Made by a program: the position numbers and the translations under genes | NCBI GenBank assembly: GCA_015489595.1 | Contig: WFZK01000002.1 | Span: 1-51,874 of the forward strand | DNA: 51,874 nucleotides | Source of the DNA: Candidatus Dojkabacteria bacterium | Lineage (GTDB): Bacteria > Patescibacteriota > Dojkabacteria > GCA-002793355 | Direction of reading: 5' to 3' | Shown: positions 2,663 through 40,045 of the stretch, in pieces | Layout: every line of letters starts with the position of its first letter | Position numbering within the stretch: position 1 is the first letter of the stretch | The notes under the pieces: generated by a model | The model's database searches: none | Seen by the model: only the letters and a program-made list of their open reading frames with translations | Told to the model about the DNA's origin: nothing

Positions 2663-2716
2663 AAGGGGGGCTGGGGAGAAAATCCAAGGAGGTCGATTTT
2701 CTCCCCAGCCCCCCTT
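2663..2716. repeat. Long palindrome P1 of the intergenic palindrome family
   Basis: Perfect 22-bp arms (2663-2684 and 2695-2716) around a 10-nt centre. The right arm reads GATTTTCTCCCC followed by AGCCCCCC. The centre (caaggaggtc) happens to contain a Shine-Dalgarno-like AAGGAGGT on the plus strand, with no start codon after it. It lies just upstream of the pilN promoter and about 145 bp past the stop of the next gene on the same strand. Confidence 0.9.
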
Positions 2717-2861
2717 AATTACCATTTGTCTGCTGTTCTAGATTACCCTGCTGGCAGGCAACTTCCCAGTACCATGGAAAAGTAGGCTACTTTAGGGCGC
2801 GTAGAAAGATCTAGTATCTGTGCGCTTCTCCTAGCATCCATATGTCTTGCCTGTTTTTTTC

Positions 2862-3242
2862 TTAGAGAGGCGTAAGTACCATCTTAGCGAATATGACCAT
2901 CAGCCCTATGATCCAAACAGACCACCACATCATCGGGATTAGCTCGAATTTAAAGGCAGGTTTAAACTTAATAGCCAAGTGGATGAGATTTAGTAAAGTA
3001 AGGATCGTAGCTGACAGGCCTGCTGCTATTTCTGAGATGATGAGGCTCATGATACCTATCCTCCTGTAGAATTTCAGATGAGTTTCAGGATCGTATGGAA
3101 TAAAATGTGGGTTATTAATCAGCCCGATAAAGGTCTGAAAAAAGATAATAGTGAGGATTAAAATAAAACCAATGAAGCTTGCGGTCTGAGAGGATAGATG
3201 TATTCTAAGTTTGAGCCTAAGTCGGGAGAGGTACTTTTGCAT
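2862..3242 (-). CDS. Small three-TM membrane protein behind tRNA-His
   Basis: 126 residues, family not recognised. A basic N-terminus (MQKYLSRLRLKLR) is followed by three hydrophobic segments at about 24-44, 66-90 and 104-123. The frame stays open upstream through the tRNA, but those codons are the tRNA itself; the first ATG outside the tRNA (3240-3242) is taken as the start. Only 11 nt separate it from the tRNA-His 3' end and there is no Shine-Dalgarno, so tRNA 3' processing would leave an mRNA with an 11-nt leader. No function is proposed. Confidence 0.7.
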   Translation of the reverse strand: MQKYLSRLRLKLRIHLSSQTASFIGFILILTIIFFQTFIGLINNPHFIPYDPETHLKFYRRIGIMSLIISEIAAGLSATILTLLNLIHLAIKFKPAFKFELIPMMWWSVWIIGLMVIFAKMVLTPL

Positions 3243-3253
3243 GATAGTAGCTG

Positions 3254-3326
3254 GGTGACCAGCGGGATTCGAACCCGCGACCACCTGTTCCACAGACAGG
3301 CGCTCTACCACTGAGCTATGGTCACC
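3254..3326 (-). tRNA. tRNA-His (anticodon GTG)
   Basis: Full cloverleaf on the minus strand. The anticodon stem CCTGT/ACAGG encloses loop CTGTGGA, giving anticodon GTG. The T arm GCGGGTTCGAATCCCGC is perfect. The acceptor includes an extra encoded G at position -1 opposite C73, the identity element of bacterial tRNA-His. The 3' CCA is not encoded (C73 is followed by CAG), so a CCA-adding enzyme is needed. A TGT-TATAAT box at 3342-3337 lies 10 nt upstream. Confidence 0.96.
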
Positions 3327-3331
3327 AGTGT

Positions 3332-3360
3332 TTGTAATTATAACACGGCTTTGCTACACT
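3332..3360 (+). promoter_or_regulatory. Promoter of the first paralogue, overlapping the tRNA-His promoter
   Basis: TTGTAA (3332-3337), a 17-nt spacer, then TACACT (3355-3360) preceded by TGC. The same arrangement recurs before the second paralogue at 4604-4632. The minus-strand -10 box of tRNA-His (3337-3342, TATAAT) abuts or overlaps this -35, so the two divergent promoters compete for the same DNA. Confidence 0.7.
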
Positions 3361-3386
3361 AGAATAATTAATATGGAAGGTTCTAT

Positions 3387-4520
3387 GTGGGAAGTTTGAA
3401 GATTTTTCTGCGTACCATCAATGGTAGACTTGTAGTCTTTCTTTTGTTCTTTAGTGTAGCTTTAATGAGCTTAGCAATTGCCTTCCCTGGACCTTTTAAC
3501 AAGGCTACTGGCGGTGTATGTGCAGGCATCATACCGGGAGGGAAGATCAGTACCGAAGATGTCATCTTAGGGTTTTTTAATTTAGAGGAGGCCGAGATTG
3601 AATACATCCCGCCGGTTGCGGCCGAACGTCTTCAGTCAAGAGTCGTGGTCGAAGGTGACGCTTTAGAAATTTCCATAAAACTGAAAGACGTAAATTTCTA
3701 CGGCTATCAGGGAGATATCGGATTCAGAGAAATAATTTATTCGGGGAAGGATTACATTAAGCCGGAAGGCTCTGACCCCAAGCGGATGAGGGAAGTTCTA
3801 ACAAGACTTTTCTTCAAGAGGGTGAACCCTAAAATGATGGCGTTTTTGAAGACAAATCTGCCATATTCTTATATCTTTGAGGTTCTTGAGGGTAAAAGAT
3901 GGCTTAGGATGAATGTGCCTAAAGATCAGGCACAGTATGTTAAATTTACTGATCAGGATACGAGGCGGCTGGCTAGAATTCTTTCTCAAGCCGTCGAAAT
4001 AAAACGCGAGACTCGAATGAAATGTTGCGTGAACCTAGAGCTGAGTCTTAGCAAAAGTGGTCTTCTTAAAGCCTTGCAGGATTTTAAGGATGATCCGTTA
4101 TCTGAGAAGTTTGCAAAAAAGTTTAAACGTACTCCGACCGAGTTTAAGAGCTCCCTTGGAGCTGCGATAGAGATGGTTAAACGTGAGCCTAAAGAGAGCA
4201 TAGAAGCCTTCAGAGTTGTTGCTAAGATAAGAAGGGTCTGGGGTAAGGTCGTACCTGTGAGTCTTAGGGGTTATATGGTGATAAACCAACAGATCGCCAC
4301 CTCGATGCGGAAGGAGCTAGCTTCTACGCAGATAGAAGAGTTAGAGAAACAGCTAGGAAAGGAGTTGGCTTCTGAGATTATCATCTACTTTAATGACGCG
4401 GTATCCCAGGGTAAGCTGGATTTCGGAGAGCTGCGGATAAAAGTTTCTCGCGATCTCCCCTCTATTACTCCTCCGACTCCGTATGTAGACTTGGAGGAAA
4501 TAATAGGCAGTCTCCCTTAA
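3387..4520 (+). CDS. Anchored extracytoplasmic protein, first of a tandem paralogous pair
   Basis: 377 residues, family not recognised. An N-terminal signal anchor (about 14-33) is followed by a soluble, probably extracytoplasmic region. It shares with the next gene, in order: 'FPGPFNKATGGV' after the TM, 'AEIEYIPPVA', 'GYQGDIGF', 'PYSYIFEVLEGKRW', a Cys-Cys pair ('MKCCVNLEL') and 'LEKQLGKELASEI'. The start is GTG at 3387, 6 nt after GGAAGG; the ATG two bases upstream is in another frame and stops after four codons. A duplicated promoter precedes each copy, so the duplication included regulatory DNA. The vicinal Cys pair could bind metal or form a disulfide; this is inference. Confidence 0.85.
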   Translation: MGSLKIFLRTINGRLVVFLLFFSVALMSLAIAFPGPFNKATGGVCAGIIPGGKISTEDVILGFFNLEEAEIEYIPPVAAERLQSRVVVEGDALEISIKLKDVNFYGYQGDIGFREIIYSGKDYIKPEGSDPKRMREVLTRLFFKRVNPKMMAFLKTNLPYSYIFEVLEGKRWLRMNVPKDQAQYVKFTDQDTRRLARILSQAVEIKRETRMKCCVNLELSLSKSGLLKALQDFKDDPLSEKFAKKFKRTPTEFKSSLGAAIEMVKREPKESIEAFRVVAKIRRVWGKVVPVSLRGYMVINQQIATSMRKELASTQIEELEKQLGKELASEIIIYFNDAVSQGKLDFGELRIKVSRDLPSITPPTPYVDLEEIIGSLP

Positions 4521-4603
4521 TTTAGGTGAGGTTGGTTCTTGCGCGGTCAGGTCACGGTGCGAGTGGGGGCAGATACAATTTTTGCTTCACGCCCGCACTG
4601 TAT

Positions 4604-4632
4604 TTGTAAATAGCTTGTGGCTTTGCTATACT
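4604..4632 (+). promoter_or_regulatory. Promoter of the second paralogue
   Basis: TTGTAA (4604-4609), a 17-nt spacer, then TGC-TATACT (4627-4632). The stretch 'ggctttgcta.act' around the -10 is shared with the promoter at 3332-3360, so the two are copies of one promoter. Confidence 0.75.
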
Positions 4633-4666
4633 AGATTATCTAAGAACTAAATTAAGAGTCAGTTTT

Positions 4667-5833
4667 ATGGAAAAAGTAAAAGCTTTTCTGAATACCACGC
4701 TGGGTAAGCTCGTTGTGATAGCTGTAGTTTTTGTTGCAGCTTTGGGTGGTCTAGCTTTTGCCTTCCCAGAGCAGTTTGACCAGGCTACAGGAGGTGTCCT
4801 CTCGAATGTGTTACCAGGCGGACAGGCCAAGATAGAGAGGGTCCTAGAAGATATTGCAGAAGTTAAAAGAGTAGAGATTGAGTATGTACCTCCGGTTGCT
4901 TCTAAGTATGTCGAGTTTAAAGTCGTTAGTAATAATTCCGAGGTTGGGTACTCCAAGTTCACTCTAAAGCTTAAAAATTTGAATATAATGGGATATAGCG
5001 GCGACATAGGTATAGAAGAGATTACAGGGCGCAAAGAAGTTTTCTTAAAGCTTAATCTGTCTAATCCACAGGTGGTTGAGCAGTTGCTTTTGCAGCAGTT
5101 GGGGGGAAGAAAAGTTGATCCCCGTGCACTTGCGTATATAAAGAACACCCCACCCTATTCATACATTTTTGAGGTTTTGGAGGGTAAAAAGTGGATAAAA
5201 ATGGACGTGGAGTCATTGGCAGGCATGGTCTCGACTGGCTCCTCAAAGTTTCCCAACAAGCCTATAAAGCTAAGCGAGGAAGAAAGCAAAAGACTTATGA
5301 AGATGTTTGCTAAGGTGTTGGTGGTCAAGCAGGTCTCGCATGAGGATTGCTGCACTAAGTATAAGTTAGGGCTAGATAGACAGAAGCTAATAGAAGCTTT
5401 AAAAGAGCTCAGAGAAGATCCTATAGCCAGCAAATTTGAGCAGAGTTATGGGAATTTTAAAAAGGCATTAAATCAGATGATTTCAGAACTGTCCAAGGCT
5501 TCTGACAGCGAGTTTGAAAACACCACTATGGTGCTAGGTGTAAGAAAGCAGGGAGGTCATTTCGTGCCAGTGATGATGCGATTTTATGTAGCTTTAAATC
5601 AAAAGGCTGTTGATAATCTACGTAAGTCTTTAGCCCCAGAAAAGGTTGCTGAGTTAGAAAAGCAGGTGGGTAAAGAACTGGCCTCAGAACTTAAGAACTA
5701 CCTTAATAGAGCAGTCTCGGAGCGCCGAATGGATTTAGGGGAGATTAGATTCAGCAAGGTGAATAACGTGCCTCAGGTTACACCGCCCAGCAACTTTGTG
5801 GATGCTAAGGATTTGATGCGAGGGTTAAAATAG
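4667..5833 (+). CDS. Anchored extracytoplasmic protein, second of the tandem pair
   Basis: 388 residues, paralogue of the preceding gene and aligned over its whole length: N-terminal TM (about 13-32), then 'FPEQFDQATGGV', 'VEIEYVPPVAS', 'GYSGDIGIEEI', 'PYSYIFEVLEGKKW', the Cys-Cys pair ('EDCCTKYKLGL') and 'LEKQVGKELASEL'. Most differences are conservative, and the most divergent stretches are around residues 85-130 and 180-210. The conserved Cys pair and the strongly conserved PYSYIFEVLEGK block are the best candidates for the functional site. No known domain is recognised. A weak purine-rich stretch precedes the ATG. Confidence 0.87.
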   Translation: MEKVKAFLNTTLGKLVVIAVVFVAALGGLAFAFPEQFDQATGGVLSNVLPGGQAKIERVLEDIAEVKRVEIEYVPPVASKYVEFKVVSNNSEVGYSKFTLKLKNLNIMGYSGDIGIEEITGRKEVFLKLNLSNPQVVEQLLLQQLGGRKVDPRALAYIKNTPPYSYIFEVLEGKKWIKMDVESLAGMVSTGSSKFPNKPIKLSEEESKRLMKMFAKVLVVKQVSHEDCCTKYKLGLDRQKLIEALKELREDPIASKFEQSYGNFKKALNQMISELSKASDSEFENTTMVLGVRKQGGHFVPVMMRFYVALNQKAVDNLRKSLAPEKVAELEKQVGKELASELKNYLNRAVSERRMDLGEIRFSKVNNVPQVTPPSNFVDAKDLMRGLK

Positions 5834-5870
5834 AGACGTGTTCGATAAATAAAAATTGAGCAGGGGGCTG

Positions 5871-6554
5871 ATGTCGTTTAAGAAAAGGTTCGCAATGTCC
5901 ACGGTCAAGAAGAGTAGAGTCGCCACTAAAAGGCGCCTCTATATTTTGGGGGATCAAGCGGAGAAGGAACTTATAAATAAAGGGGTTCTAAACAAGGTGG
6001 TTTTTAAATGGAAGGCTCCCGATAGGATAGCCATTGATAAGGATAACTTTAAGTTTGCGAGCCTTGGAGGTGTTCTTTTTTTGGTGGGGCTGTACTTTCT
6101 TTGGATAGGGAAACCCCTATTTGCGGTAGCAGTGGCGGCTGTGTTTTTTCTTTATTATGTTTTGTATACAACTCCAGCAAGGGAGGTCGAGCATTCGATA
6201 GAGCTTTTGGGAATTAGGAGTTTTGGGGTGCTTTATCCCTGGGATAATCTTATTAATTTTTGGTTTGCTGAAAAGGACGGCAACCTGGTGTTGTATGTTT
6301 CGACTACTTTGGCTTTTCCTACAAGATTGATGATGGTAGTTCCTTCGAGAGAGGAGGCTCAAAAGATTCTCCTCTCTTTGGTGAAATATCTCCCCTACCG
6401 TAGATTGATCAAGAAGCAGTCCTGGTGGGATAAGACTGTTTACGGAAGATATCTGCCTCCTGAAGAGATAGTAGATGAGGATACAGTTGCGGAATTGGTA
6501 GACGAGTATAACAAAATAAAAGCCAAGGTTAGAAAAAGAAGAAAGAGTCCGTAA
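5871..6554 (+). CDS. Two-TM membrane protein with PH-like domain layout
   Basis: About 227 residues. A basic N-terminal third (residues 1-60) contains a short beta-like stretch. Two adjacent TMs (about 65-82 and 88-105) form a hairpin, followed by a domain with 'ELLGIRSFGVLYPWDNLINFWF' and a charged C-terminal tail ending KARKRRKSP-like. The order (two TMs then a beta-rich domain with a W-x-N-I motif) resembles bacterial PH/DUF5673-type membrane proteins, but no family is certain. ATG 5871 is preferred to the TTG at 5856 because GGGGG lies just before it; ATG 5895 is also possible. It follows the paralogous pair by 37 bp. Confidence 0.75.
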   Translation: MSFKKRFAMSTVKKSRVATKRRLYILGDQAEKELINKGVLNKVVFKWKAPDRIAIDKDNFKFASLGGVLFLVGLYFLWIGKPLFAVAVAAVFFLYYVLYTTPAREVEHSIELLGIRSFGVLYPWDNLINFWFAEKDGNLVLYVSTTLAFPTRLMMVVPSREEAQKILLSLVKYLPYRRLIKKQSWWDKTVYGRYLPPEEIVDEDTVAELVDEYNKIKAKVRKRRKSP

Positions 6555-6558
6555 GTGC

Positions 6559-6564
6559 TATAAT
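6559..6564 (+). promoter_or_regulatory. -10 box giving a leaderless mRNA for the hydrolase/ECF operon
   Basis: TGC-TATAAT ends exactly 5 nt before the ATG at 6570, so the predicted +1 is the A of the start codon. No -35 match is visible. Confidence 0.75.
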
Positions 6565-6569
6565 AATAC

Positions 6570-7232
6570 ATGAACTTCACCTATCAAGGCATTCAGTTTG
6601 CACTTTACGAGCACGATACCGCCTACGTAGGGTATCAGGGGAGGCACTTTTATTTTGATCCTTTTAAAGTACCTGAGGGATTGCCCCCTGCTGATGTTAT
6701 CTTTATCACCCATGATCATTTTGACCACTTTTCACCTGAAGATATAGATAAGCTAGCCACAGAAGCTACATCTCTTGTCGTGCCTGAGAGTATAGAAACC
6801 GTTGTAAAACAGAAGGTTAATCTTCGCCTCTATTCAGTAGAGATCGGCGAGACGTATACCCTTTTTGATCTAGAGATAACCCCTATTCCGGCCTACAACG
6901 TGAACAAATTTAAGGCTCCGGGAGAGGTTTTTCATCCTAAAGCTGCGGGATACGTGGGATACTTTGTGAAGTTTGGTGAAGTAGGAGTTTACTTTGCAGG
7001 GGACACCGATGCTATCCCAGAGATGCAGCAGCTTAAGGGGAAAGTTGATGTGGCATTCTTACCAATATCTGGGACTTATGTAATGACTATGGAGGAGGCA
7101 CTAGAGGCTGCAGAGATGATTGGGCCGAAGATTATTGTTCCTATGCATTATGGAGCAATCGTAGGAGAGCCAGATATGGGCCGCAAGTTTGCTCAGATGG
7201 TTGGTGATAAGTATATTGTTTATCCTAAATAA
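6570..7232 (+). CDS. Metallo-beta-lactamase-fold hydrolase (UPF0173/UlaG-like)
   Basis: 220 residues, cytosolic, of the MBL superfamily branch that includes UlaG and UPF0173 proteins. Metal-binding motif 'THDHFDH' (residues 47-53) supplies His48, His50, Asp52 and His53; 'FAGDTDAIPEM' supplies the bridging Asp and 'VPMHYGA' the final His. The substrate cannot be read from sequence; UlaG-like members act on lactones or phosphodiesters. Its TAA stop shares its last base with the ATG of the ECF sigma factor (TAATG), so translation is coupled and a functional connection to sigma signalling is plausible. Promoter and start are fixed by the -10 box 5 nt upstream. Confidence 0.88.
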   Translation: MNFTYQGIQFALYEHDTAYVGYQGRHFYFDPFKVPEGLPPADVIFITHDHFDHFSPEDIDKLATEATSLVVPESIETVVKQKVNLRLYSVEIGETYTLFDLEITPIPAYNVNKFKAPGEVFHPKAAGYVGYFVKFGEVGVYFAGDTDAIPEMQQLKGKVDVAFLPISGTYVMTMEEALEAAEMIGPKIIVPMHYGAIVGEPDMGRKFAQMVGDKYIVYPK

Positions 7233-7744
7233 TGCAGAAGTTTATCCGCCAGGCTTATCAGAAGCACAAGCGCGATCTGTATACATATGTTTTTTACCGT
7301 GTGAAAAATCAAGAATTAGCAAGAGATATCGTGGCAGAGGTTTTTCTAAGGCTTACCAAAAACATCCACAAGCCAGGCGTAAAAAAATATCTAAGGGCTT
7401 GGCTTTTTAGAGTGGCTAGAAATTTAGTTGTTGACTATTATCGAGATGCTTATTACTCCAAGAGCCGCTCTTTGAAACAGGGTTTAGTAGAAGACGATGC
7501 CTACGCCAAGATAGAGAGCAAGATAGATAGTGATAAACAGCTTAAAATGTTATCTAAGTGCTTTAAGTTGCTAAGCCCAGCCTATCGGGAGATTATTGAG
7601 TTCAGAGTTTTTATGGGGTTACCCTACAGGGAGATCTCCGTTGTACTTAATATAAGTGAAAGCTCAGCCAAAATGAGGTACAAGCGAGCAATCGATAAAC
7701 TAAAACAGTTGTGCAGTGATGAAAAGATTAAGTCAGCTGCTTGA
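7232..7744 (+). CDS. ECF-type sigma-70 factor
   Basis: 170 residues with region 2 (about 10-80; 'DIVAEVFLRLTKNI' and 'WLFRVARNLVVDYYRD', the core-binding and -10 recognition helices) and region 4 (about 110-165; 'LSPAYREIIEFRVFMGLPYREI' region and 'SESSAKMRYKRAIDKL', the -35 helix-turn-helix). Regions 1 and 3 are absent, which defines an ECF factor. It is sandwiched between the hydrolase (TAATG coupling) and the giant membrane protein (26-29 bp overlap). In ECF systems the overlapping downstream membrane gene is usually the anti-sigma factor, which suggests regulated release of this sigma. Confidence 0.93.
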   Translation: MQKFIRQAYQKHKRDLYTYVFYRVKNQELARDIVAEVFLRLTKNIHKPGVKKYLRAWLFRVARNLVVDYYRDAYYSKSRSLKQGLVEDDAYAKIESKIDSDKQLKMLSKCFKLLSPAYREIIEFRVFMGLPYREISVVLNISESSAKMRYKRAIDKLKQLCSDEKIKSAA

Positions 7745-10871: not shown

Positions 10872-10923
10872 TTTAGGGGCTGGGGCCCCAAAGGAAGTTA
10901 GCGATAACGGACTGTCCTGTATG

Positions 10924-10953
10924 TTGACTTTATAGGGTTTAATGGTATATAAT
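10924..10953 (+). promoter_or_regulatory. Strong consensus promoter of the 29-residue peptide gene
   Basis: TTGACT (10924-10929), an 18-nt spacer and TATAAT (10948-10953). It is the only promoter in the window with near-consensus boxes at both positions. The predicted 5' leader is about 75 nt. Confidence 0.8.
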
Positions 10954-10979
10954 ATCTTGTACTTTGAAAAGGGGAGGGG

Positions 10980-11012: not shown

Positions 11013-11036
11013 TGGAAGAAAATAAGGAGGTGAACC

Positions 11037-11126: not shown

Positions 11127-11215
11127 GTCATTTAGCCCTGTATGAATAATTTAACCCCCTCCCCTTATTCTCTCTCTGGAGTCTCTAATACTTATTGAGC
11201 GTTTGAACCTTTAGG

Positions 11216-12543: not shown

Positions 12544-12572
12544 ATTGTAGTGCAATTTAGGGCGTGGGGCAA
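12544..12572 (-). promoter_or_regulatory. Promoter of the TyrA-PheA gene, -35 inside palindrome P2
   Basis: Minus strand: TTGCCC (12572-12567), a 17-nt spacer, TACAAT (12549-12544), then 5 nt to the ATG. The -35 hexamer is part of the left arm of palindrome P2. Confidence 0.6.
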
Positions 12573-12607
12573 AATGCGGGAGTAGCGCATTTTGCCCCAC
12601 GCCCTAA
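12557..12607. repeat. Long palindrome P2
   Basis: Perfect 22-bp arms (12557-12578, 12586-12607), 7-nt centre. Right arm GCGCATTTTGCCCCACGCCC plus TAA. It overlaps the promoter of the TyrA-PheA gene. Confidence 0.92.
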
Positions 12608-12683
12608 GGTGGGCTCGTCTTTCATGGTGGAGGAGAGTCGCTATACGTAGGGTTATTCAAAAAAACTTGGGAGGGAAGCAATT

Positions 12684-12735
12684 TTAGGGGGCTTACGCAA
12701 AATCGGCTTTTTTCGATTTTGCGTAAGCCCCCTAA
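12684..12735. repeat. Long palindrome P3, overlapping the polymerase gene stop codon
   Basis: Perfect 22-bp arms (12684-12705, 12714-12735), 8-nt T-rich centre. Right arm CGATTTTGCGTAAGCCCCCT then AA. The stop codon of the O-antigen polymerase-like gene (12732-12734, minus) lies inside the right arm. Between P2 and P3 (12608-12683) nothing recognisable is seen. Confidence 0.92.
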
Positions 12736-14105
12736 TTTCGTCTTTTGTCCCGATGTATTCCCCACCACCAGGTAAGAGGGTCCCAGAATCCGAAGTAGAA
12801 AATGGTTGATACGGATAAGAAAGGTAGGGCTAGAGAAAGCGCGGTTGTAAATGCGCTGTCAGCGGAGGGTTTGTCTAAGGTAATCTTTATTTGTCTTATG
12901 TAAAGAACCCACAGATATATAAGTATAGCCACATAAACCACAAAGCCGGGTAGGCCTTGTTCCATAATAAGGGTGGCATAAAGTGAGTGGGCAGATGCTC
13001 CAAATTTAGCTTTAGGATCGATCTTCTCAATGTACACCATGGGAAAACTCCCTAAGCCCCATGGGATAAGTTTGTGAGACAATGCAAGCTTTACAGCTAT
13101 TGAGCTTAGACGCACATGGGTTCTTGCTGAGGCATCTCGGGTTACAGAGAATACGGATTTTACATATCTTGTGGTTGTTTTAATTACTTGAGATCTTACG
13201 GGTGTCATAAGGATAAGGCCTACTATAAAAAGTGTGGTAAGAATTGTCCTTACTGCAACCAATTTAATCACCGATAGCGCTATTGAATGTTTCTTTACAA
13301 TTCCGTAAGCTACCAGTGGGGCCATCACGGCGATAAAGCCCAGCAGTGCACTTCTTGAGAATGTAAAGATGTAATTGCCTATTGTCAGTATTTGAATCTT
13401 TGTGAGCCAGTCGCTGTAATTTTGTTCAAGCTTAGGAGAAAGATAAAGTACAACAGAGATCGCAAGTACGATAAGTAGAAACATCGCATAAACGTTTGTG
13501 TCGCCTAAAAGACCAGGGGGACGAAGAATATAATGCTTGTAGCTTAGATATTGGGCAAGGGGCTTGTCTATAAAGTAGCCGTTGAATAGGAACTTTCTAA
13601 ATAGCAGTGGAAGTTTTTTGTATCCTGATCTGAATCTGTATATAGTGTAGACCTGTAGGATACTTAGAAGAAAGCCGTAGGCCACGATAAAAAACATCGC
13701 CTTTATCCAGAGTCCAATAATCTTAAGTTTTAGCCTGGATTTTATAAGCCATCTAGCCCAGATTGATGTGGCAAATCCCAGGAGATAGCTTATATGAAGA
13801 TAGGCGAGCATACTTATGCTCAAAGAGAGGTATTTACTAAACACTAAGCTTATGAAATTTACTAAGCTAAGAGAACCGAAGATTATCACTTGAATTTTGT
13901 ATGTTTGTAAAAATTGTTTTAGCCCAAGATCAGCGATTTCTAACAATACTATCACTGCAGCGATCGCACTTAAGAGTAGGAGCCCTGGATTTATATGTTT
14001 GTTTAAGGAGCTAATAGATATGGTAACCGTAAAGGCTCTAAATAAAAGTAGTATCGGAGAAAAAGCCCACAATATAAGCATCGTGCGCTTTAGGGATTTT
14101 TTCAT
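12732..14105 (-). CDS. O-antigen ligase/polymerase-like membrane protein
   Basis: 457 residues, very hydrophobic, about 11-12 TMs. It has the Wzy_C/O-antigen ligase layout: N-terminal TM bundle, a large extracytoplasmic loop with 'LLGDTNVYAMFLLIVLA' before it, 'FTFSRSALLGFIAV' (the conserved SR-S segment), a second loop with 'GASAHSLYATLIMEQGLPG' (family H-N/S-x-Y/L motif) and the C-terminal TMs. It would polymerise or transfer lipid-linked polysaccharide repeats at the outer face of the membrane. ATG 14105 (MKKSLKRT) is chosen because TGC-TAGAAT ends 5 nt before it; the in-frame ATG at 14120 lies upstream of that box. First of the polysaccharide locus; its 3' end is in palindrome P3. Confidence 0.85.
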   Translation of the reverse strand: MKKSLKRTMLILWAFSPILLLFRAFTVTISISSLNKHINPGLLLLSAIAAVIVLLEIADLGLKQFLQTYKIQVIIFGSLSLVNFISLVFSKYLSLSISMLAYLHISYLLGFATSIWARWLIKSRLKLKIIGLWIKAMFFIVAYGFLLSILQVYTIYRFRSGYKKLPLLFRKFLFNGYFIDKPLAQYLSYKHYILRPPGLLGDTNVYAMFLLIVLAISVVLYLSPKLEQNYSDWLTKIQILTIGNYIFTFSRSALLGFIAVMAPLVAYGIVKKHSIALSVIKLVAVRTILTTLFIVGLILMTPVRSQVIKTTTRYVKSVFSVTRDASARTHVRLSSIAVKLALSHKLIPWGLGSFPMVYIEKIDPKAKFGASAHSLYATLIMEQGLPGFVVYVAILIYLWVLYIRQIKITLDKPSADSAFTTALSLALPFLSVSTIFYFGFWDPLTWWWGIHRDKRRN

Positions 14106-14110
14106 TTTAA

Positions 14111-14116
14111 ATTCTA
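14111..14116 (-). promoter_or_regulatory. -10 box for the polymerase-like gene (leaderless)
   Basis: TGC-TAGAAT on the minus strand ends 5 nt before ATG 14105, which decides between the two candidate starts. Confidence 0.65.
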
Positions 14117-14292
14117 GCATAGAGAGTGGAGTTGGTGGGGATGCAGGGGGCTGGGGTCTCCAATGGTAAATGACGATTCTATCTTCTGCGCCTTTAATTG
14201 TTTTATCGTTCTAGGAGGCGATTTTCTCAGGGTGCCAAATAAAACATATTTTGACGTGCAGGGTTTACCCTATTTGCCCGCGCCTGCAACCG

Positions 14293-15273: not shown

Positions 15274-16551
15274 GTGAGGGTCGCCATAGTACATGATAAA
15301 CTTTGTGAGCCCGGAGGGGCAGAGTTTATTCTTAAGATACTTATGAAAATTTTCCCTAGCGCCGACATTTACACATTATTTTATGACCGGACGCAGTATC
15401 CTTTTCTTAAGGAGAGGCGTGTGATTACTTCTTTCCTTGACGTGATATGCAAGGTGCCCCTTCTAAAATCAAGATACAGGTTGCTGTTTCCTTTTGTATA
15501 CTGGGCTTTTTCGAGTTTTGATTTAAGCGCCTATGATGCGGTAATTAACATCAGTTTTATAGGTGGACACACTGCTGGGGAGAAGGCTTTAAGTTCAGAT
15601 GTAGCAAAGCAGAGTAACATGCGGCGAGTTTTAGGTTCTGTAGACGGGTTTGCCGTTGGCAAAAAATCTGATGCCGGTTTACAGATTCATACTAACGGCG
15701 GTATTCCTAACAGAAAGCCTTTAAAAATTGTATATTTCCAAACTCCTCCTAGACATCTGTGGATAGAGCAAGACAGATATTTGTCGTCTGTTCCGGGAAT
15801 TTTTCTCCCCATTGCAAAGAAGGTTTGGAATTATCTAAAAGCGAAAGACTTAAATGTGGCCCCGTCGCTGTGGTATGTTTTAGCTAATTCTACAGAGGTA
15901 AAAAAAAGGGTTGAGAAGGTCTACGGCATAGACAACGTGCAGGTGCTTTATCCACCAGTTGAGGTAAGAAAAATAATTAAGGCGAGGCAGGTGCGCCGGG
16001 TTAAAAAAGGCGATTTCTATCTTATTCTTTCAAGGCTTATGGAGTATAAGCGTTTTGATATAGCAGTTTCTGCGTTTGCGTCTCTAAGGGTAAAAAGATT
16101 GATTGTGGCAGGGACAGGGCCAGAACTCGCTAAACTCAAGCGTATAGCTTCCGGGGCGAAAAATATAGAATTTTTAGGCCGTGTCGACGAAGCTACTAAG
16201 CTAGATCTGTTGGCAAGGGCAAAGGCATTGATTTTGCCTGGAAGGGAAGACTTTGGGATTGTGATGGCAGAGGCTTTGGCTGCAGGGACCCCAGTGATTG
16301 GGTACTACAAAGGAGGGGCTGCCGAGATACTTACGGGTAGGCAAGCAAATGTTGCCGAACCTGGCCTTCAGCCTGGTGGCGTTTTGATTGAAGACCAAAC
16401 TGTTAAAGGAATTGTTTCAGCTATTAAGCTAATAGAGAAGCAGCGCTGGCCTGTTAGAAAGCTTCAGGCTTTAGTTGAAAAATATGATGTCTCAAACTTT
16501 GTGGAGAAGTTTAAGGACGAGGTCTTTAAGGGGCTTGCGCCGGAATCGTAG
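15274..16551 (+). CDS. GT4-family glycosyltransferase
   Basis: 425 residues with the two-Rossmann GT-B fold. N-terminal 'RVAIVHDKLCEPGGAEFIL' is the acceptor-side start typical of GT4; 'YFQTPPRHLW' matches the WbaZ/mannosyltransferase subgroup; the donor site is 'GTGPELAKLK', 'EFLGRVDEATKLDLLARAKALILPG' and 'EDFGIVMAEALAAGTPVIGY' (the E-x7-E element that holds the nucleotide sugar). It adds a sugar to lipid-linked oligosaccharide at the cytoplasmic face. Acceptor and sugar cannot be told. GTG start follows a TGC-TTTAAT box by 6 nt. Its TAG stop forms the outer edge of palindrome P4. Confidence 0.92.
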   Translation: MRVAIVHDKLCEPGGAEFILKILMKIFPSADIYTLFYDRTQYPFLKERRVITSFLDVICKVPLLKSRYRLLFPFVYWAFSSFDLSAYDAVINISFIGGHTAGEKALSSDVAKQSNMRRVLGSVDGFAVGKKSDAGLQIHTNGGIPNRKPLKIVYFQTPPRHLWIEQDRYLSSVPGIFLPIAKKVWNYLKAKDLNVAPSLWYVLANSTEVKKRVEKVYGIDNVQVLYPPVEVRKIIKARQVRRVKKGDFYLILSRLMEYKRFDIAVSAFASLRVKRLIVAGTGPELAKLKRIASGAKNIEFLGRVDEATKLDLLARAKALILPGREDFGIVMAEALAAGTPVIGYYKGGAAEILTGRQANVAEPGLQPGGVLIEDQTVKGIVSAIKLIEKQRWPVRKLQALVEKYDVSNFVEKFKDEVFKGLAPES

Positions 16552-16599
16552 GGTTGGGGGCAAAAATCGACTTTTCTCGATTTTTGCCCCCAACCCCTA
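16549..16599. repeat. Long palindrome P4 between convergent genes
   Basis: 20-bp perfect core arms (16551-16570, 16577-16596) with two more pairs past a single bulged C, 6-nt centre. Right arm TCGATTTTTGCCCCCAACCC. The left edge coincides with the stop codon of the GT4 gene. Confidence 0.92.
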
Positions 16600-16757
16600 A
16601 CATGTCTCTAAGCTGGTTCGAATTAGCCTGCTGGAGGAGTAGCCATGCGTTTGGCTGGGAGGATGTGTTTGTTTGGATCTGTTTTTGGCCGCTTGGATAA
16701 GAGCTGCTAGAACCAGGGGAAAGTTGTATTCATTACCTAGAAGACTAGTTCTGGAGT

Positions 16758-20668: not shown

Positions 20669-21436
20669 ATGTTAAGAAAGCAGAATTTATTAAAACGTGC
20701 TCTTGGCAGTTGGTTATTATTTGTTGCGATTGTAGGGATCTTCGCAATAATAGGTGCAGGATTTGGAGCTGTAGCCTTTAAGCTGCAACGTCCTAGGTCT
20801 ACGGTTACAGCAGTATTTGCTTATTTTCCACCGATTAATTACGGAGCTGATTCCCCGGACTTTAAGGCTCTAGGTTCTCCCTATGTTTCAGCAGCAGTGC
20901 GTGCACTCATACGGGACAGAATAAGCAGCACTCTGTCTGAGGCTGACCCAGATGTTAGGGTTGTTTTTGAAAATTTAGGTTTAAAAGACGACTTCCCTTT
21001 TAGGGTAAAGATTGTCACTGCTGCTCCTGATAAGGCTAAAGAAGAATTAGTAAAAACCGCCGCTGAGTTAGAGAAGGGTAATAGCTATATGGGGGCTCTA
21101 TCATCTTCGTATAAGAATGTTTTAGATAAGTGGCTCACCACTTATAAGAGTTATAGGGAGAAAGTTAACAAGAATTTTGGGGCAAAGAGTGTAGACTCTT
21201 TGCGCCTGTCTTTGTATCTTAACGAAAAGATATCTGCAATTGAGACTTTAAGAAGACTGCCTGTGGGGGTAAAGATGATAACTGGACCTAAGGTTTCTAA
21301 ACCCGTGTTGCCGGTTCTGCCTCTTTATTTGCTAATTGGTGCTGTAGTTGGAGCGAGTATAGGGGTAGGTTTTACATTCGTAGCATTCGCTTTAAGCCCT
21401 AAGGGAGCGGTCCGAGCCCGTGGGAAGTTAATTTAG
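20669..21436 (+). CDS. Wzz-like polysaccharide chain-length determinant
   Basis: 255 residues with the PCP (polysaccharide co-polymerase) architecture: TM1 at about 13-36, a mostly helical extracytoplasmic region of about 170 residues, a Pro-rich approach 'KVSKPVLPVLPLYLLIGAV' and TM2 at about 222-245, with a short basic tail. Proteins of this kind set chain length together with the Wzy polymerase, the product of the gene just upstream (6-bp gap). 'aggag' precedes the ATG by 1 nt only. The stop codon lies in the left edge of palindrome P5. No tyrosine-kinase domain is attached. Confidence 0.8.
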   Translation: MLRKQNLLKRALGSWLLFVAIVGIFAIIGAGFGAVAFKLQRPRSTVTAVFAYFPPINYGADSPDFKALGSPYVSAAVRALIRDRISSTLSEADPDVRVVFENLGLKDDFPFRVKIVTAAPDKAKEELVKTAAELEKGNSYMGALSSSYKNVLDKWLTTYKSYREKVNKNFGAKSVDSLRLSLYLNEKISAIETLRRLPVGVKMITGPKVSKPVLPVLPLYLLIGAVVGASIGVGFTFVAFALSPKGAVRARGKLI

Positions 21437-21490
21437 GGGGCTTAGGGGGGCAAAAATCTACCTTTCTCGATTTTTGCCCCCTAAGCCCTT
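21434..21490. repeat. Long palindrome P5 spanning two convergent stop codons
   Basis: Arms 21436-21458 and 21469-21490 with one bulged G and two terminal G-U pairs. Right arm CGATTTTTGCCCCCTAAGCCC. The stop of the Wzz-like gene (21434-21436, plus) and that of the PssE-like gene (21481-21483, minus) both lie in it, so the element fills the whole gap between the convergent genes. Confidence 0.9.
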
Positions 21491-23392: not shown

Positions 23393-23440
23393 GGGGTGCG
23401 GGGGAGAATTTGTTAAGTTTCAAATTCTCCCCCGCACCCC
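23393..23440. repeat. Long palindrome P6 before the dsbA-rpoB operon promoter
   Basis: Perfect 20-bp arms (23393-23412, 23421-23440), 8-nt centre. Outer arm GGGGTGCGGGGGAG; the inner core (AATTTG/CAAATT) differs from the other copies. It ends 4 bp before the -35 box at 23445. A half-element (tagggcgtggg, 23349-23359) lies just upstream. Confidence 0.88.
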
Positions 23441-31988: not shown

Positions 31989-32005
31989 TATAGAGATTTA
32001 AAGTC

Positions 32006-32476: not shown

Positions 32477-32479
32477 TTT

Positions 32480-33193: not shown

Positions 33194-33196
33194 GCT

Positions 33197-34719: not shown

Positions 34720-34746
34720 AGTGGGCTATGACTCTTTCAGGGGGTT

Positions 34747-34784
34747 CACCTTAGGAAATGGCTGAGTTTCCCTGAAGGTGCTTT
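34747..34784 (+). terminator. Possible hairpin at the end of the rpo operon
   Basis: TCACCTTAGGAAA pairs with TTTCCCTGAAGGTG with one or two bulges, about 30 bp after the last stop codon. No U-tract follows, so it is not a canonical intrinsic terminator. Confidence 0.35.
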
Positions 34785-34875
34785 GGGATTGTGGTCTGTC
34801 TCTACTTCTATTTATGCAGTGCTGGTAGGCTTTTAAGGGAGTGGATGGAAACGATTCTTCTTTTCCTCTGATATT

Positions 34876-34903
34876 TTGCTGGCCGTTTTTTATGAAGTAT
34901 AAT
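34876..34903 (+). promoter_or_regulatory. Promoter for the DUF2207 protein (leaderless)
   Basis: TTGCTG (34876-34881), a 16-nt spacer, TATAAT (34898-34903), then 5 nt to the GTG start at 34909. Confidence 0.65.
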
Positions 34904-34908
34904 AAACT

Positions 34909-36837
34909 GTGAAGGTCACCAAAGTTTTAATCTTTATTCTGCTGTGGATAGGATTACTCTTTTTTAGCCCTTCAATAAAGGCTGGTATAGAAGATGACGT
35001 AAAAGATGCGGTATCCCAGGCTCAACTTAAGCTGGCTTCTGAGCCTTCCCGTGTTTCCCTCCAAAAACCTGTCTATCATGCTTTCGTAGGTAGACTTTCA
35101 GCACAAGAGAACGCAATGCATGTTACAGAGATAATAGCGGTAGTGAATACCTCGAGAAATCACGGCGTGTTTATAGCCTTGCCGCTTAGTGCCTATCTCT
35201 CAGATAAAAAAACATTCCATGTTGTTGATGTAAAAGTAGATAAAGCTTTAAAGTATGATGGTCAGAGGCCAGTAGAAGCTCCGTTTTTTACACAGATTGA
35301 GCCTGTTGGTAGGTATGGTGAGAAGGCGTTTTTTATCTTTGTGGGGGATAAAAACAAAACCGATCCTGGCAAGCATACCTATGTAATTTCATATACTGTT
35401 TATAATGTATCTGAGACTGTAGGTAACGTAGATGTGGTGGCATATGACTTGGCTCGGGTTAGAAAGGGTAGCTTTATTTATCCTTCAGAGTTTTATGTTG
35501 TGTATGTTCCTAAGAGTTTGAGAGAATTTCATATATATCTTGATGAGTTCGAATATAATGAGCATGTGGTCAAACAAGATGTCGGGACAGAGGTTAGGAT
35601 AGACTTCCCAATAAAAGGCGGAACTTACGATGTACTTACATTTTCAGGGAAATTCCCTGCCGGCACCTTTGCTGTCACGGATAAGATCAAAAAGCTACGG
35701 AGCCAAGGAGATACTATGATTCGGAATATTAAGCTAGGGAAGGCTTTGAGAAAATTGGTATTGTGGGGCTCGCTGGCCTATGCAGCCTGGCTTATCTTTT
35801 CTATCTATAGCTTTTATCAGAAATATGGCAAAGAGCGCTTCACAAAGGCTTTCCCTCCTGTTTATGTGCTTAGTAAAAAGTTGAGATCTATAAGTCCAGC
35901 CTTGGCGTCCTTTATTTTTTATTATGAAAATAATCTTAAACTTCAGCGTGTTTTAACTTCTCAAATCTTAGAATGGGCTGTCTCTAAGGTTTTAGTTATT
36001 AATAAAGAGCCAAAGCAACCTACCCAACTTACGCTTCTTAAAAGGCTTGAGAGCTTTAGAGATAAAGCAGAGGAGCTTGTGTTTAATCTGTTTTTCAAAG
36101 ATAAGGATACCTTTACGGTGGCTCCTTCTTCTTTTACCAGGGGAGAACTCCTGTCGATGATTGGAGGGATTCGTCGGGAGTTTAAAGAGCGTTTCTTGGA
36201 GCATTCAGGAGATAGTGAAAGGAAAAAACTCACAGTTACTGTTTTTCTGATAGCTTTTGTTGGTCTTGTGGGGCTGTTTTTCGCCTATCCTGTCTTTGAG
36301 TTAGCCGGAGGAGTTTTAGCCCAGGTGGCAAATGGCAATGAGCTGTTTTTAGCGAGTCTTACTCTGATGGTCCCTGGGGTAGTTTGGCTTATTTTCTCTA
36401 GATACATGGGTAGACTAAATCAGGAGGGAATTGATCTGTACAGAGAGCTTCATGGTCTCTATCGATATATTAAGGCTGCAGAGGTTAAGCGGATAAAGTT
36501 TTTTAATGATCCTGACAAGTTGGTAAAACATTTTGAAGAGCTTTTACCCTATGCTGCGATGTTTGGGTTGTTTGATAAATGGGTAAAAGTATTTAAAGAT
36601 ATCTTTAAGCTAAAGAATATTGATTATCAGGCATACTGGTTAAGGGGTCAGACCTTAGGCAGTGTAGAAGCAGCGACTGATGCTATAGATTCTGTGTATG
36701 AAAGCGTAGATTCTGCGATCTCTAAAACCGTGGAGTCAATGGTAAAAGAAAGCGGAAGCTTCTCTTCAGGAGGCGTCTCAAGTTCTGGCGGCTCAGGAGG
36801 AGGTTTCAGCGGTGGCAGCAGCAGCGGCGGGTGGTAG
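34909..36837 (+). CDS. DUF2207-type membrane protein
   Basis: 642 residues. N-terminal signal sequence (about 1-24, ending IKAG), an extracytoplasmic beta-rich DUF2207 region of about 240 residues ('VISYTVYNVSETVGNVDVVAYDLA', 'YPSEFYVVYVP'), then TMs at about 283-303, 438-458 and 468-488 and a cytoplasmic-looking region. The tail is a Gly/Ser run (SGGSGGGFSGG, ending GGW), the typical terminus of DUF2207 proteins. Function is unknown for the family; envelope roles are suspected. GTG start is supported by TATAAT 5 nt upstream. Confidence 0.85.
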   Translation: MKVTKVLIFILLWIGLLFFSPSIKAGIEDDVKDAVSQAQLKLASEPSRVSLQKPVYHAFVGRLSAQENAMHVTEIIAVVNTSRNHGVFIALPLSAYLSDKKTFHVVDVKVDKALKYDGQRPVEAPFFTQIEPVGRYGEKAFFIFVGDKNKTDPGKHTYVISYTVYNVSETVGNVDVVAYDLARVRKGSFIYPSEFYVVYVPKSLREFHIYLDEFEYNEHVVKQDVGTEVRIDFPIKGGTYDVLTFSGKFPAGTFAVTDKIKKLRSQGDTMIRNIKLGKALRKLVLWGSLAYAAWLIFSIYSFYQKYGKERFTKAFPPVYVLSKKLRSISPALASFIFYYENNLKLQRVLTSQILEWAVSKVLVINKEPKQPTQLTLLKRLESFRDKAEELVFNLFFKDKDTFTVAPSSFTRGELLSMIGGIRREFKERFLEHSGDSERKKLTVTVFLIAFVGLVGLFFAYPVFELAGGVLAQVANGNELFLASLTLMVPGVVWLIFSRYMGRLNQEGIDLYRELHGLYRYIKAAEVKRIKFFNDPDKLVKHFEELLPYAAMFGLFDKWVKVFKDIFKLKNIDYQAYWLRGQTLGSVEAATDAIDSVYESVDSAISKTVESMVKESGSFSSGGVSSSGGSGGGFSGGSSSGGW

Positions 36838-36843
36838 TATAAT
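36838..36843 (+). promoter_or_regulatory. -10 box for the HAD gene
   Basis: TATAAT begins right after the DUF2207 stop codon and ends 4 nt before ATG 36848, supporting the internal start. Confidence 0.55.
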
Positions 36844-36847
36844 AAAT

Positions 36848-37372
36848 ATGCAAGAGATAAGGGATCTTTTAGAGCTTCCTTCACCCATTTTCCATATTAT
36901 TTTTGATCTTAGTAAGGTCATAGTTCCAGTTAAGTTGAAGCAACAGATGCTAGAAGCTGAGACTGGGGGGAGTACAGGTTTTAAACCACCGCCCTGGTAT
37001 CTTAACTTAATCTCTTCACTTAAAACTAGATTTACCTTTGGGATTTTGTCTAATACTTCAGTTCCAGATCTTTATCTTAAATATCTTAAACTAGATAAAT
37101 ATTTCAGTCCTAGGATCTTTACCCTCTGGGAAGCCCCACCTAAGCCACATCCGGATGCATTCAGAAAATATCTAGAGAAGGTAAAGATGCCAGTCGAAAA
37201 TATTGCCATGATTGACGATAAACCACACAACCTGGTTGTGGCTAAAAGTTTTGGAATCTATACAGTTTGGGCAAGACTCCCAGAACAAAAGGATCCTGAT
37301 ATTGTTCATCAACCACTCCTTGATGCCTGGATTGAGTGGCATGCTTATTTGGACAGGCTAACAGAGAGGTAG
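36848..37372 (+). CDS. HAD-superfamily hydrolase-like protein
   Basis: 174 residues from ATG 36848; an in-frame ATG at 36812 exists but lies inside the preceding gene. HAD core motifs: motif I 'IIFDLSKVI', motif II 'FGILSNTS', motif III Lys in 'APPKPHPDAF' and motif IV 'IAMIDDKPHNLVVA'. The nucleophile Asp is present, but the acid/base residue two positions later is Ser rather than Asp (D-L-S). That occurs in some non-phosphatase HADs, so the chemistry may not be an ordinary phosphatase. The cap is minimal ('KQQMLEAETGGSTGFKPPPW'). Confidence 0.82.
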   Translation: MQEIRDLLELPSPIFHIIFDLSKVIVPVKLKQQMLEAETGGSTGFKPPPWYLNLISSLKTRFTFGILSNTSVPDLYLKYLKLDKYFSPRIFTLWEAPPKPHPDAFRKYLEKVKMPVENIAMIDDKPHNLVVAKSFGIYTVWARLPEQKDPDIVHQPLLDAWIEWHAYLDRLTER

Positions 37373-37405
37373 AGAACGGCTAAATTCTGTTCGCGGGGAA
37401 TGCCT

Positions 37406-38128
37406 CTAAGTAAAGTTCGTTTTGGTTAACTCTATTAGGGCATTTATGTCTCCTTTGTTTTTAAAAATTAGGTTACCAACTTTTTGTAAGAATGGGCGAA
37501 GTTGTGGATAAAAATTCGCATCTGAGTATGAGATTTTATTTTCTGGCCAGAGTCTCGTCACCACTATTCGGTCTATATAAGAAAGATTGAATGCAATTGC
37601 TTCAGTTAAGGCCCATCGCTGTTGATCACTTAGCTTAGCTTTAAGCTTGTTTAGATACGCATGAATATAAGATTCTATAAATTCGATCGCGAAAATAGGT
37701 AACCCTTTTGGTTTAGCATGCTTGTACCAAACGGAAAACACGCACCCTTCCCATGCGCTTGTAGAGAAAAATCCGCTAATGACGCATACAAAAGGAAACG
37801 GATTGAAGGAGTAATGGATGGCAAGTAGGGTGTTAACCCTGGAGACTAGAAATTTTAAACGTTCGGGAGTGTAGAATATTTTGAAAAACTTAAGGGCAGA
37901 AGAAAGTTCTCTTCTGTGAGCCTTGTGGAATTTTTCTACAAAACTATAAATTAAATCCCATTTCTCTTCGTTTGACTTGATGGATCTAAATTTGCGAATA
38001 AGAGAGTAGGGTATATTGCGGCCCTTTAGCCTTTTTTCTTCATCGGCCGGGTCATGAGGAAGTTGCTCTATAATATTCCACAATATGTTAGCATCGCTTG
38101 TGCAGGAGGTTGTAAAACGTACCAGCAT
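37406..38128 (-). CDS. Unrecognised 240-residue soluble protein
   Basis: No family recognised. Largely helical; contains five Cys ('TTSCTSD', 'FVCVISGFF', 'WEGCVFSVW' among them) and aromatic-rich middle ('YSFNPFPFVCVISGFFSTSA'). No TM is convincing, though residues about 108-130 are hydrophobic. It stands alone, converging on the HAD gene (33 bp between stops). Upstream on its strand TACTAT ends 6 nt before the ATG, in line with the leaderless pattern. Confidence 0.7.
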   Translation of the reverse strand: MLVRFTTSCTSDANILWNIIEQLPHDPADEEKRLKGRNIPYSLIRKFRSIKSNEEKWDLIYSFVEKFHKAHRRELSSALKFFKIFYTPERLKFLVSRVNTLLAIHYSFNPFPFVCVISGFFSTSAWEGCVFSVWYKHAKPKGLPIFAIEFIESYIHAYLNKLKAKLSDQQRWALTEAIAFNLSYIDRIVVTRLWPENKISYSDANFYPQLRPFLQKVGNLIFKNKGDINALIELTKTNFT

Positions 38129-38260
38129 ACTGCTATAGTATTCTATACGATTTTTAAGGTTTTGTGGTTTAAGGAGTGGTGGTATAAGTTTAGGGTGGGG
38201 GATCGCTGTTTGTTAGATAGGGGGAGAAGGCAGGAGTCTGTTTGAGAGCTTGGTGAGATT

Positions 38261-39541
38261 ATGAAAAAGCTTGGAAGGATTTTCCTGACAATAATCATAA
38301 TCTTTACTTTCCTGGTAAATATTTTACAGAGTTTTGTGGCGGTAGAAATAGTTAGGTGGCATCTAAAGAAGCAGGGTTATGTAGGTAAAAAGAGTATGCC
38401 TTCGTCCCCTGTAGGTGTTGTTGGAGCTGCAGGAGTAGTGAGGCTTTATACTCATTCATGTGTTAGGTTTAAAGTGCCTGCCTTTGACGTGACTGAAAGG
38501 TTAAGCTTGGCTGGGAAAGCGTATACAGTATGTTCAGAAGGGGAGGGTACTGGATTTGCAGTCACTAAAGATTATATAGCAAGTGCGGGGCACGTTTTGA
38601 TGCCGTCGAGTAAGGGTATCTTTTATGGATATGCAGCCTATCTTTTGGCCTTTTTATCTAAAGGGAGAGCACTCCCCGGATATTTAGATAATGGTTTTTC
38701 CAGTGATCTTTTAGCTGCAGGTAGAAGGTTGGGATACTCCAGACCTGGTTCCACATTTTACAAGAAGGTTCTTAAACAGATTGCAGATAGGTTAAGCGAG
38801 GATAGCTTTACTTTGGCTAAGCATAAAGTTTGGGCAACTCTTGGAGCTTCTGTAACTTGTACGCCTACCGGGCGGTGTAATTCGTTTTATCATAAAGTGG
38901 TTCAAGTAATTCCTGTAGATGGATATGTTCCCAAGGCGAATTTTAACTGGAAGATCGGGGCGCCCACGACGGGGGGAGTCTTGCCTGATTTGGCAGTTGG
39001 TAAGCTTACGGAGCGACTTGGTGTGACTCCCTTGCAGCTAGGGGATTCACGATACATTGATGTTTCCGAAAGATTAATCCTCGTTGGTTTTTCTCCTCTC
39101 GTAGATTCTTCTCTCCCCGATGGAGTAATCTTACCTCACGTACAGGAGGGGACGTTATACACCTCTGAATACTCCCCTTACTTTATGTTTTCTGATTTTT
39201 TAATAGTAAAAATGCCAGGGTTTCCAGGTGAAAGCGGTAGTCCGGTCCTTAATTCCAAGGGAAAGGTCGTGGGTATATGCGCCTTGGGGGAGGTAGAGGG
39301 GATACTATCATCTGAAGATGAGGTGATGATGGCTGTAAAGGTTTCGCTTTTAAAAGAGCTTTTGGACAAACACGGCATAAAGTACAACCATTCTTCTTCG
39401 TCTGAGGTGTTATTAAGAAGTCTTCAGACCTCTAGTAAACATTCGAGGAATAAGCTTGAACAGTTTATAAGATTCGAGCCAGCGTATTATTCTGAGCTTT
39501 TAGGGCATTACTTTTCCGTTAGGGAAGACAGGCCTAGGTGA
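38261..39541 (+). CDS. Membrane-anchored trypsin-like serine protease
   Basis: 426 residues. N-terminal signal anchor (about 7-30), then an S1-type protease domain on the outside. Triad candidates: His111 ('IASAGHVL'), Asp243 ('LPDLAVGKL') and Ser325 in 'FPGESGSPVLNSKGKVVGIC'. There is an insert of about 100 residues between the His and Asp strands (about 115-215), with Cys200 and Cys206 close together. No PDZ domain follows, unlike HtrA/DegP; the last 70 residues are a basic and polar tail. Likely role: processing or quality control of surface proteins, by inference. GGTGAG precedes the ATG. Confidence 0.88.
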   Translation: MKKLGRIFLTIIIIFTFLVNILQSFVAVEIVRWHLKKQGYVGKKSMPSSPVGVVGAAGVVRLYTHSCVRFKVPAFDVTERLSLAGKAYTVCSEGEGTGFAVTKDYIASAGHVLMPSSKGIFYGYAAYLLAFLSKGRALPGYLDNGFSSDLLAAGRRLGYSRPGSTFYKKVLKQIADRLSEDSFTLAKHKVWATLGASVTCTPTGRCNSFYHKVVQVIPVDGYVPKANFNWKIGAPTTGGVLPDLAVGKLTERLGVTPLQLGDSRYIDVSERLILVGFSPLVDSSLPDGVILPHVQEGTLYTSEYSPYFMFSDFLIVKMPGFPGESGSPVLNSKGKVVGICALGEVEGILSSEDEVMMAVKVSLLKELLDKHGIKYNHSSSSEVLLRSLQTSSKHSRNKLEQFIRFEPAYYSELLGHYFSVREDRPR

Positions 39542-39643
39542 CAAGAGTTTGGATTTTACCTTACACTCGAGAGTACACCTATTTTTTTATGATAAGCGCT
39601 ACTTGGCTGCAAGATAATTCTAAGCGGCAAAGGGGAAAAGGTG

Positions 39644-39699
39644 GTAGGGGGGCTGGTGGCAAAATCGTAGAGACTCGATTTTGCCACCAGCCCCCCTAC
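39644..39699. repeat. Long palindrome P7
   Basis: The longest member: perfect 24-bp arms (39644-39667, 39676-39699), 8-nt centre. Right arm CGATTTTGCCACCAGCCCCC plus CTAC. It lies between the protease and DUF167 genes on the same strand. Confidence 0.93.
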
Positions 39700-39738
39700 G
39701 TTGCCTTTTATCTTCTGAGCCTGATACTATTAAAGTGT

Positions 39739-39999
39739 ATGGGCTCTATGCTTATCTTAGTGCAAGTCAAGCCGAAATCAAGGATGTATAAAGTAGAAAG
39801 ACTTCCAGACAATGCTGTGGTGCCGTTACCGGGGTTTTCAGGAAAGGTCTCTGCTATGTATAGGGTTTTCCTAAAGGAGCCTCCTGTTGACGGGAAGGCA
39901 AACACAGCGTTGGTCAAGTTGCTTTCAGATTACTTTGGCAAGCCTGTACGGATTTTAAGGGGGAAAGGTTCAAGGATTAAACTGATGCAGGTGGGGTAA
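39739..39999 (+). CDS. DUF167/UPF0235 (YggU-like) protein
   Basis: 86 residues from ATG 39739 (MGSMLILVQVKP); the longer frame upstream would cross palindrome P7 and is not credible. The family block is clear: 'LVQVKPKSR', 'VSAMYRVFLKEPPVDGKANTALVKLLSDYF' (split for orientation) and 'VRILRGKGSRIK'. Small cytosolic protein of unknown function. The stop TAA is followed directly by palindrome P8. A TGA-TACTAT box lies 8 nt before the ATG. Confidence 0.88.
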   Translation: MGSMLILVQVKPKSRMYKVERLPDNAVVPLPGFSGKVSAMYRVFLKEPPVDGKANTALVKLLSDYFGKPVRILRGKGSRIKLMQVG

Positions 40000-40045
40000 G
40001 GGGCTGGGGCGAAAATCGACTTTCTTCGATTTTTGCCCCAGCCCC
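40000..40045. repeat. Long palindrome P8
   Basis: 20-bp arms (40000-40019, 40026-40045) with one G-U pair, 6-nt centre. Right arm TCGATTTTTGCCCCAGCCCC. It begins on the base after the DUF167 stop codon. Confidence 0.92.

Follow-up and report, generated by a model that had tools for sequence, protein, structure and literature searches.

The window, a 51,874-nt contig of Candidatus Dojkabacteria bacterium (contig 2 of a fragmented draft genome of 825 kb in 47 contigs), carries eight long inverted repeats, and all eight lie where the original prediction had placed them (Table 1). Six of the eight are perfect. The hairpin at 40000-40045 has a single G-T mismatch, and that at 21434-21490 has G runs of unequal length and an imperfect core. 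A common inner core had been proposed, and CAAAATCG is present in most of the hairpins, although three of the eight lack it. The 2663 hairpin carries AGAAAATC instead, the 12557 hairpin is of a second type with the core CAAAATGCG, and the 23393 hairpin has a third type of core, AGAATTTG. The hairpin at 12684-12735 overlaps the stop codon of the gene at 12732-14120. The 16549-16599 hairpin lies between convergent genes and overlaps the stop codon of the gene at 15274-16551, and 21434-21490 overlaps both stop codons of the convergent genes on either side of it.

Table 1. Hairpins and spacers in the window (strand + means that A to B reads on the + strand)
Feature	Position	Strand	Remarks
Hairpin A of repeat copy	2663..2716	+	22-bp perfect arms, then spacer
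Spacer of the 2663 copy	2717..2793	+	spacer profile E=1e-15
Hairpin B of full repeat copy	12557..12607	-	22-bp perfect arms; B type GGGCGTGGGGCAAAATGCG
Spacer of the 12557-12735 copy	12606..12684	-	spacer profile E=2e-8
Hairpin A of the 12557-12735 copy	12684..12735	-	22-bp perfect arms
Hairpin A, weak spacer match to its right	16549..16599		weaker copy, 16549-16633
Imperfect hairpin A	21434..21490		89% complementary over 18 nt; no spacer detected
Third-core-type hairpin (AGAATTTG)	23393..23440		between divergent genes; no spacer detected
Hairpin A, 24-bp perfect arms	39644..39699	-	weak element match 39695-39551, E=2e-10
Hairpin A	40000..40045		directly after a stop codon; no spacer detected

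There are two main hairpin types. Type A ends in CAAAAATCGA around an AAAAAGT-like loop, and type B is GGGCGTGGGGCAAAATGTG or -GCG. The two recur about 75 bp apart, and composite copies align over the full length of a repeat of about 175 bp that consists of hairpin A, a 79-bp non-coding spacer and hairpin B. Because the spacer is conserved and a second hairpin type is present, both of which the original prediction had missed, the palindromes are parts of a larger repeat, and most of the long ones are its ends and not independent units. Two of the eight in the window, 12557-12607 and 12684-12735, are the B and A ends of one copy (full-element match 12733-12560, E=7e-45). The 2663 copy has a full-element match at 2667-2819, with a decayed B hairpin. 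Rfam found only two tRNAs in the window and no match to the repeat at gathering score, with sub-threshold matches only, and a search of the spacer for a conserved RNA fold gave none clearly above shuffled columns. Hairpins with a GAATTTG-like core like that of 23393-23440 also occur at L020 28653, L106 1830 and L105 917 (L-numbers denote sampled stretches of the genome); they have no common spacer and possibly form a separate repeat family.

The sampled stretches comprised 402 kb including the window, later extended to 482 kb (about 58% of the genome). The 402-kb set was drawn from contigs known to hold copies, and B hairpins partly guided the choice of the later stretches, so that the densities should not be taken as exact averages for the genome. 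An unbiased scan (stem score at least 14, loops of 3-12 nt) found 86 long hairpins in 402 kb and 117 in 482 kb, against none in a first-order Markov sequence of the same length as the 402-kb sample. A genome-wide search for the core, as the original prediction had proposed, turned up further copies, with 69 occurrences of the strict form AAAATCG-N3-10-CGATTTT and none in a reversed control. A profile of the spacer alone detected 48 copies in 402 kb, many with a decayed A or B end, and 66 in the 482 kb that include the stretches chosen for B hairpins. In the less biased 402-kb set, A ends were retained more often than B ends (30 against 16 of 48). A further 28 A-type hairpins have no detectable spacer, and 22 of these are perfect. 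Long multi-copy repeats of at least 200 bp were absent from the 402 kb. Some copies lie tail to tail with one common B hairpin, such as L032 35987-36292 of a joined stretch (the same as L033 15987-16292). Inverted pairs with one common hairpin, either A-B-A tail to tail or B-A-B head to head, were seen at L033 15987-16292, L028 13928-14228 and L105 1191-1311, an arrangement reminiscent of an inverted duplication started at a hairpin, or of the insertion of one copy into another.

Among the genomes searched, the repeat is restricted to this one. The pattern GGGGCAAAA-N8-34-TTTTGCCCC has 57 copies here and none in 379 other genomes of the phylum, and samples of seven genomes of the same family, about 530 kb in total, contain two long hairpins. 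Wider pattern searches (58 relatives, 380 genomes of the phylum, and contigs from GTDB and from viruses) gave isolated matches only, as did blastn searches of plasmids. The related genomes held no copies in which loss of pairing could be compared.

Several features point to mobility. The outer A arm and the reverse complement of the outer B arm both carry GGGC-TGGGGCAAAA and so constitute terminal inverted repeats. An A precedes the G run in 31 of 41 copies, frequently as part of a TA, and the element ends are TA-rich. Direct repeats of 4-6 nt at the two ends are in excess over permuted pairings (mean 2.02 against 1.19, P=0.001), with end positions free to shift by up to 3 nt, and six were at least 5 nt long where 1.5 were expected (P=0.004). 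They are clear in no more than a handful of copies, the best being TGTAA (L028), AATTA (L017), CTTTC (L032) and AAATT, which flanks the window copy 12557-12735 on both sides. A search for an empty site in a relative found none. The repeat is short, non-coding and multi-copy, with terminal inverted repeats, as is typical of a MITE, for which about 100-400 bp is usual. REP- or MITE-like mobile palindromes were among the candidates of the original prediction; the MITE-like form is supported and the REP/RAYT form is not.

Small bacterial mobile repeats such as Correia/NEMIS, RUP, ERIC and YPAL (reviewed in PMC2229807 and PMC10969869) are likewise shorter than 200 bp, non-coding and intergenic, and occur in many copies in one lineage. 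Their outer ends also resemble each other and terminate in TA, and they are flanked by short direct repeats, which in the present case are clear in few copies. They differ in having one inverted pair that spans the element, whereas here each end is self-complementary and mostly a perfect hairpin; the ends here are also GC-rich, and no complete helper IS was found. CIR, the Caulobacter/Brucella intergenic repeat (PMC2229807, table note), resembles the repeat in that each end forms its own long stem-loop, but it belongs to other bacteria, and the likeness drawn here is one of end structure.

The original prediction had noted that where one arm differs between copies the opposite arm changes to match. 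This is borne out across the sample, since 2329 of 2349 arm pairs (99%) are Watson-Crick, with 11 G-T (0.5%), 6 A-C and 3 other pairs, and 98 of the 117 hairpins are perfect. The spacers diverge by 30% from their consensus. A neutral simulation left 0.25% of A ends intact at 30% divergence and 10% at half that divergence. Among the 66 observed A ends, 36 are intact (55%) and only 8 are partial, far above the neutral expectation, so pairing is actively kept.

How pairing is kept is suggested by the footprints in the hairpins themselves. Relative to the spacer, 7 of 35 classifiable A ends have an inverted loop (28:7), as do about 6 of 10 B ends whose loop is of the GTAATGA/TCATTAC family (about 4:6). 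Hybrid ends occur, such as L035 13506, with a B outer arm and an A core, and L018 20431, an A end with a B-type 5' outer arm. In some unpaired ends the two arms differ as a block, each corresponding to a different perfect arm; L032 36037 is the clearest case and L024 8033 a less close one. Taken together, the loop inversions, hybrids and block differences favour copying between arms. In RNA stems under selection, appreciably more G-U is tolerated than is seen here. The conclusion of the original prediction that the covariation shows selection on pairing goes too far, since the loop inversions, the hybrid arms and the near absence of G-U point to templated correction at the DNA level. The lack of a conserved fold in the spacer and the presence of hairpins between divergent genes are further reasons why the covariation does not show selection on an RNA. 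Arm-to-arm copying explains the covariation better than selection for an RNA shape does. Inverted loops with multi-base compensatory changes are the footprints of template switching described by Monttinen and Loytynoja (PMC8794818), and the repeat hairpins show both, along with perfect stems. Those cases were seen across species in RNA genes, whereas here the changes are across copies in one genome. The marks of template switching cannot be told apart here from the similar ones that conversion or inversion between arms would produce. Short-read assembly across perfect 20-bp arms could in principle flip or misplace loop orientation, but common sequence types in more than 100 places are not expected of an assembly artefact.

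These observations are probably best accounted for by a MITE-like repeat of about 175 bp that transposes non-autonomously and whose hairpin ends are kept perfect by arm-to-arm copying. Within one small bacterial genome the repeat now occupies many dozens of sites. It has multiplied in this lineage only, and its surviving copies are mainly intergenic. The outer sequences of A and B, being similar, may serve as terminal inverted repeats for a transposase acting in trans, for which an IS5-family enzyme, represented in the assembly by a truncated copy only, is the best candidate. After insertion, each end could fold on itself in single-stranded DNA at replication, and template switching or arm-to-arm conversion may repeatedly recopy one arm from the other, to judge from the footprints. 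Such recopying would produce near-perfect stems of drifting sequence, flipped loops and hybrid ends. It is rather improbable that the hairpin ends are self-templating, that is, rebuilt as perfect palindromes during the repeat's own transposition or replication; if they were, new copies would be born with new yet perfectly paired ends. We know of no such transposition mode described for DDE-type MITEs.

The placement of the hairpins relative to genes, called with a simple purpose-made caller, bears on whether they are bidirectional transcription barriers or terminators that separate transcription units, with the stem under RNA or DNA selection. Hairpins occupy 47 of 135 co-directional gaps (35%), 15 of 34 convergent gaps (44%) and also 14 of 45 divergent gaps (31%), a distribution unlike that of terminators; divergent gaps have fewer of the full copies (2 of 41). 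The stems are very stable (mean -39 kcal/mol), as a barrier would be, and 17 hairpins have a stop codon within -6 to +5 nt, compared with about 7 by random placement, and only one has a start codon there. The element's TTAG end can itself provide a stop codon. Outward -10-like motifs, counted with the spacer sequence excluded, are about four-fold enriched 20-39 nt beyond the hairpin edge, a spacing that puts hairpins just upstream of likely -35 regions. Insertion tolerance in tight gaps would also give both positions: where only the space from a stop codon to the following promoter can take an insertion, stop-codon adjacency and outward -10 enrichment are to be expected. In favour of the barrier reading, few gene ends carry a canonical intrinsic terminator (8 of 224, against 4 in the control); against it, Rho is present in the genome and a few GC-rich hairpins with a T run resemble real terminators. 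A ends are equally intact whether they face the 5' or the 3' end of a gene (18 against 16), and a U-tract follows the stem in only 7 of 208 strands, in agreement with its absence in the original prediction. With so many divergent gaps occupied, the same-family genomes nearly hairpin-free and G-T pairs so scarce, the proposal of a bidirectional terminator as the main role is not upheld, and the barrier reading is unlikely. These very GC-rich hairpins, for example at L020 14726-14762 and L029 16240-16278, have 3-nt loops and a T run after the stem; they have the appearance of strong terminators of the usual kind and stand apart from the A/B family.

The higher retention of A than B and the 28 A hairpins that persist without a spacer are not predicted by purely mutational correction and suggest some selection on A, so that co-option is conceivable at some sites. 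That an element of mobile origin was co-opted at many sites, for mRNA 3' end protection or promoter insulation, and is maintained by selection together with copying, is unlikely, because A-only copies favour no gene orientation (16 are co-directional, 6 divergent and 4 convergent) and A intactness is independent of facing a gene 3' end. REP or REPIN elements moved by a RAYT (Y1 HUH) transposase are also paired extragenic palindromes, often about 75 bp apart in the present case, and compensatory hairpin changes have been reported for them (PMC3116915). In REPINs, however, two REPs pair into one hairpin, whereas here each end forms its own. The RAYT-type transposase that the original prediction had proposed to look for was not found, as no RAYT/IS200 (PF01797) match was obtained at E<=0.1 in the genome, of which the assembly lacks about 6%, and the same search does match control genomes; this origin is very improbable. 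Paired DNA-uptake sequences that act as terminators, as in Neisseria, would be in keeping with the type IV pilus genes pilN and pilO in the window (the pilO match being below its cut-off), but the hairpins are intergenic, whereas many single sites within genes would be expected. In 402 kb, 35 sites of the 11-nt core GCAAAAATCGA fall within detected hairpins and 7 elsewhere, and those of the latter that were inspected are broken copies, not scattered single arms. This candidate of the original prediction is exceedingly unlikely.

On the reading as a MITE-like repeat with arm-to-arm copying, the hairpins call for caution when RNAs are sought by covariation, which is commonly taken to prove a functional RNA stem. 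Over 100 hairpins covary strongly here, with signs of DNA copying between arms, not RNA selection. As a natural data set they are useful for quantifying palindrome correction, and they document a MITE-like expansion in a small genome where few other mobile elements were detected.

Two types of transposase were detected among the families searched, one IS5-like and truncated (E=2.5e-19) and one IS481-like; no Tn3 transposase (PF01526) was found in the genome, and no complete transposase or autonomous copy of the repeat in the assembly. After the IS5-like copy comes, correctly oriented, GGGGCGTGTGCCAAAAA; its score against the end matrix of the repeat is 21.5 bits (chance about 0.008 in a stretch of that size, with genome background). 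This one similar end is a lead that tentatively suggests the IS5-like element as the source of the repeat; it may also match by chance or be a decayed copy. The IS5-like protein had no match in viral contigs and only about 31% identity to IS5-family proteins in plasmids. The IS481-like element was rejected as the source, its end resembling the repeat end weakly (11 bits). Copies of the IS481-like transposase are located at contig ends. An IS5-like fragment lies head to head with an IS481-like fragment at L109 1468-2148 (end of G000:C22) and L020 1-535 (start of C8); the junction is palindromic, and both transposases are truncated or fragmentary.
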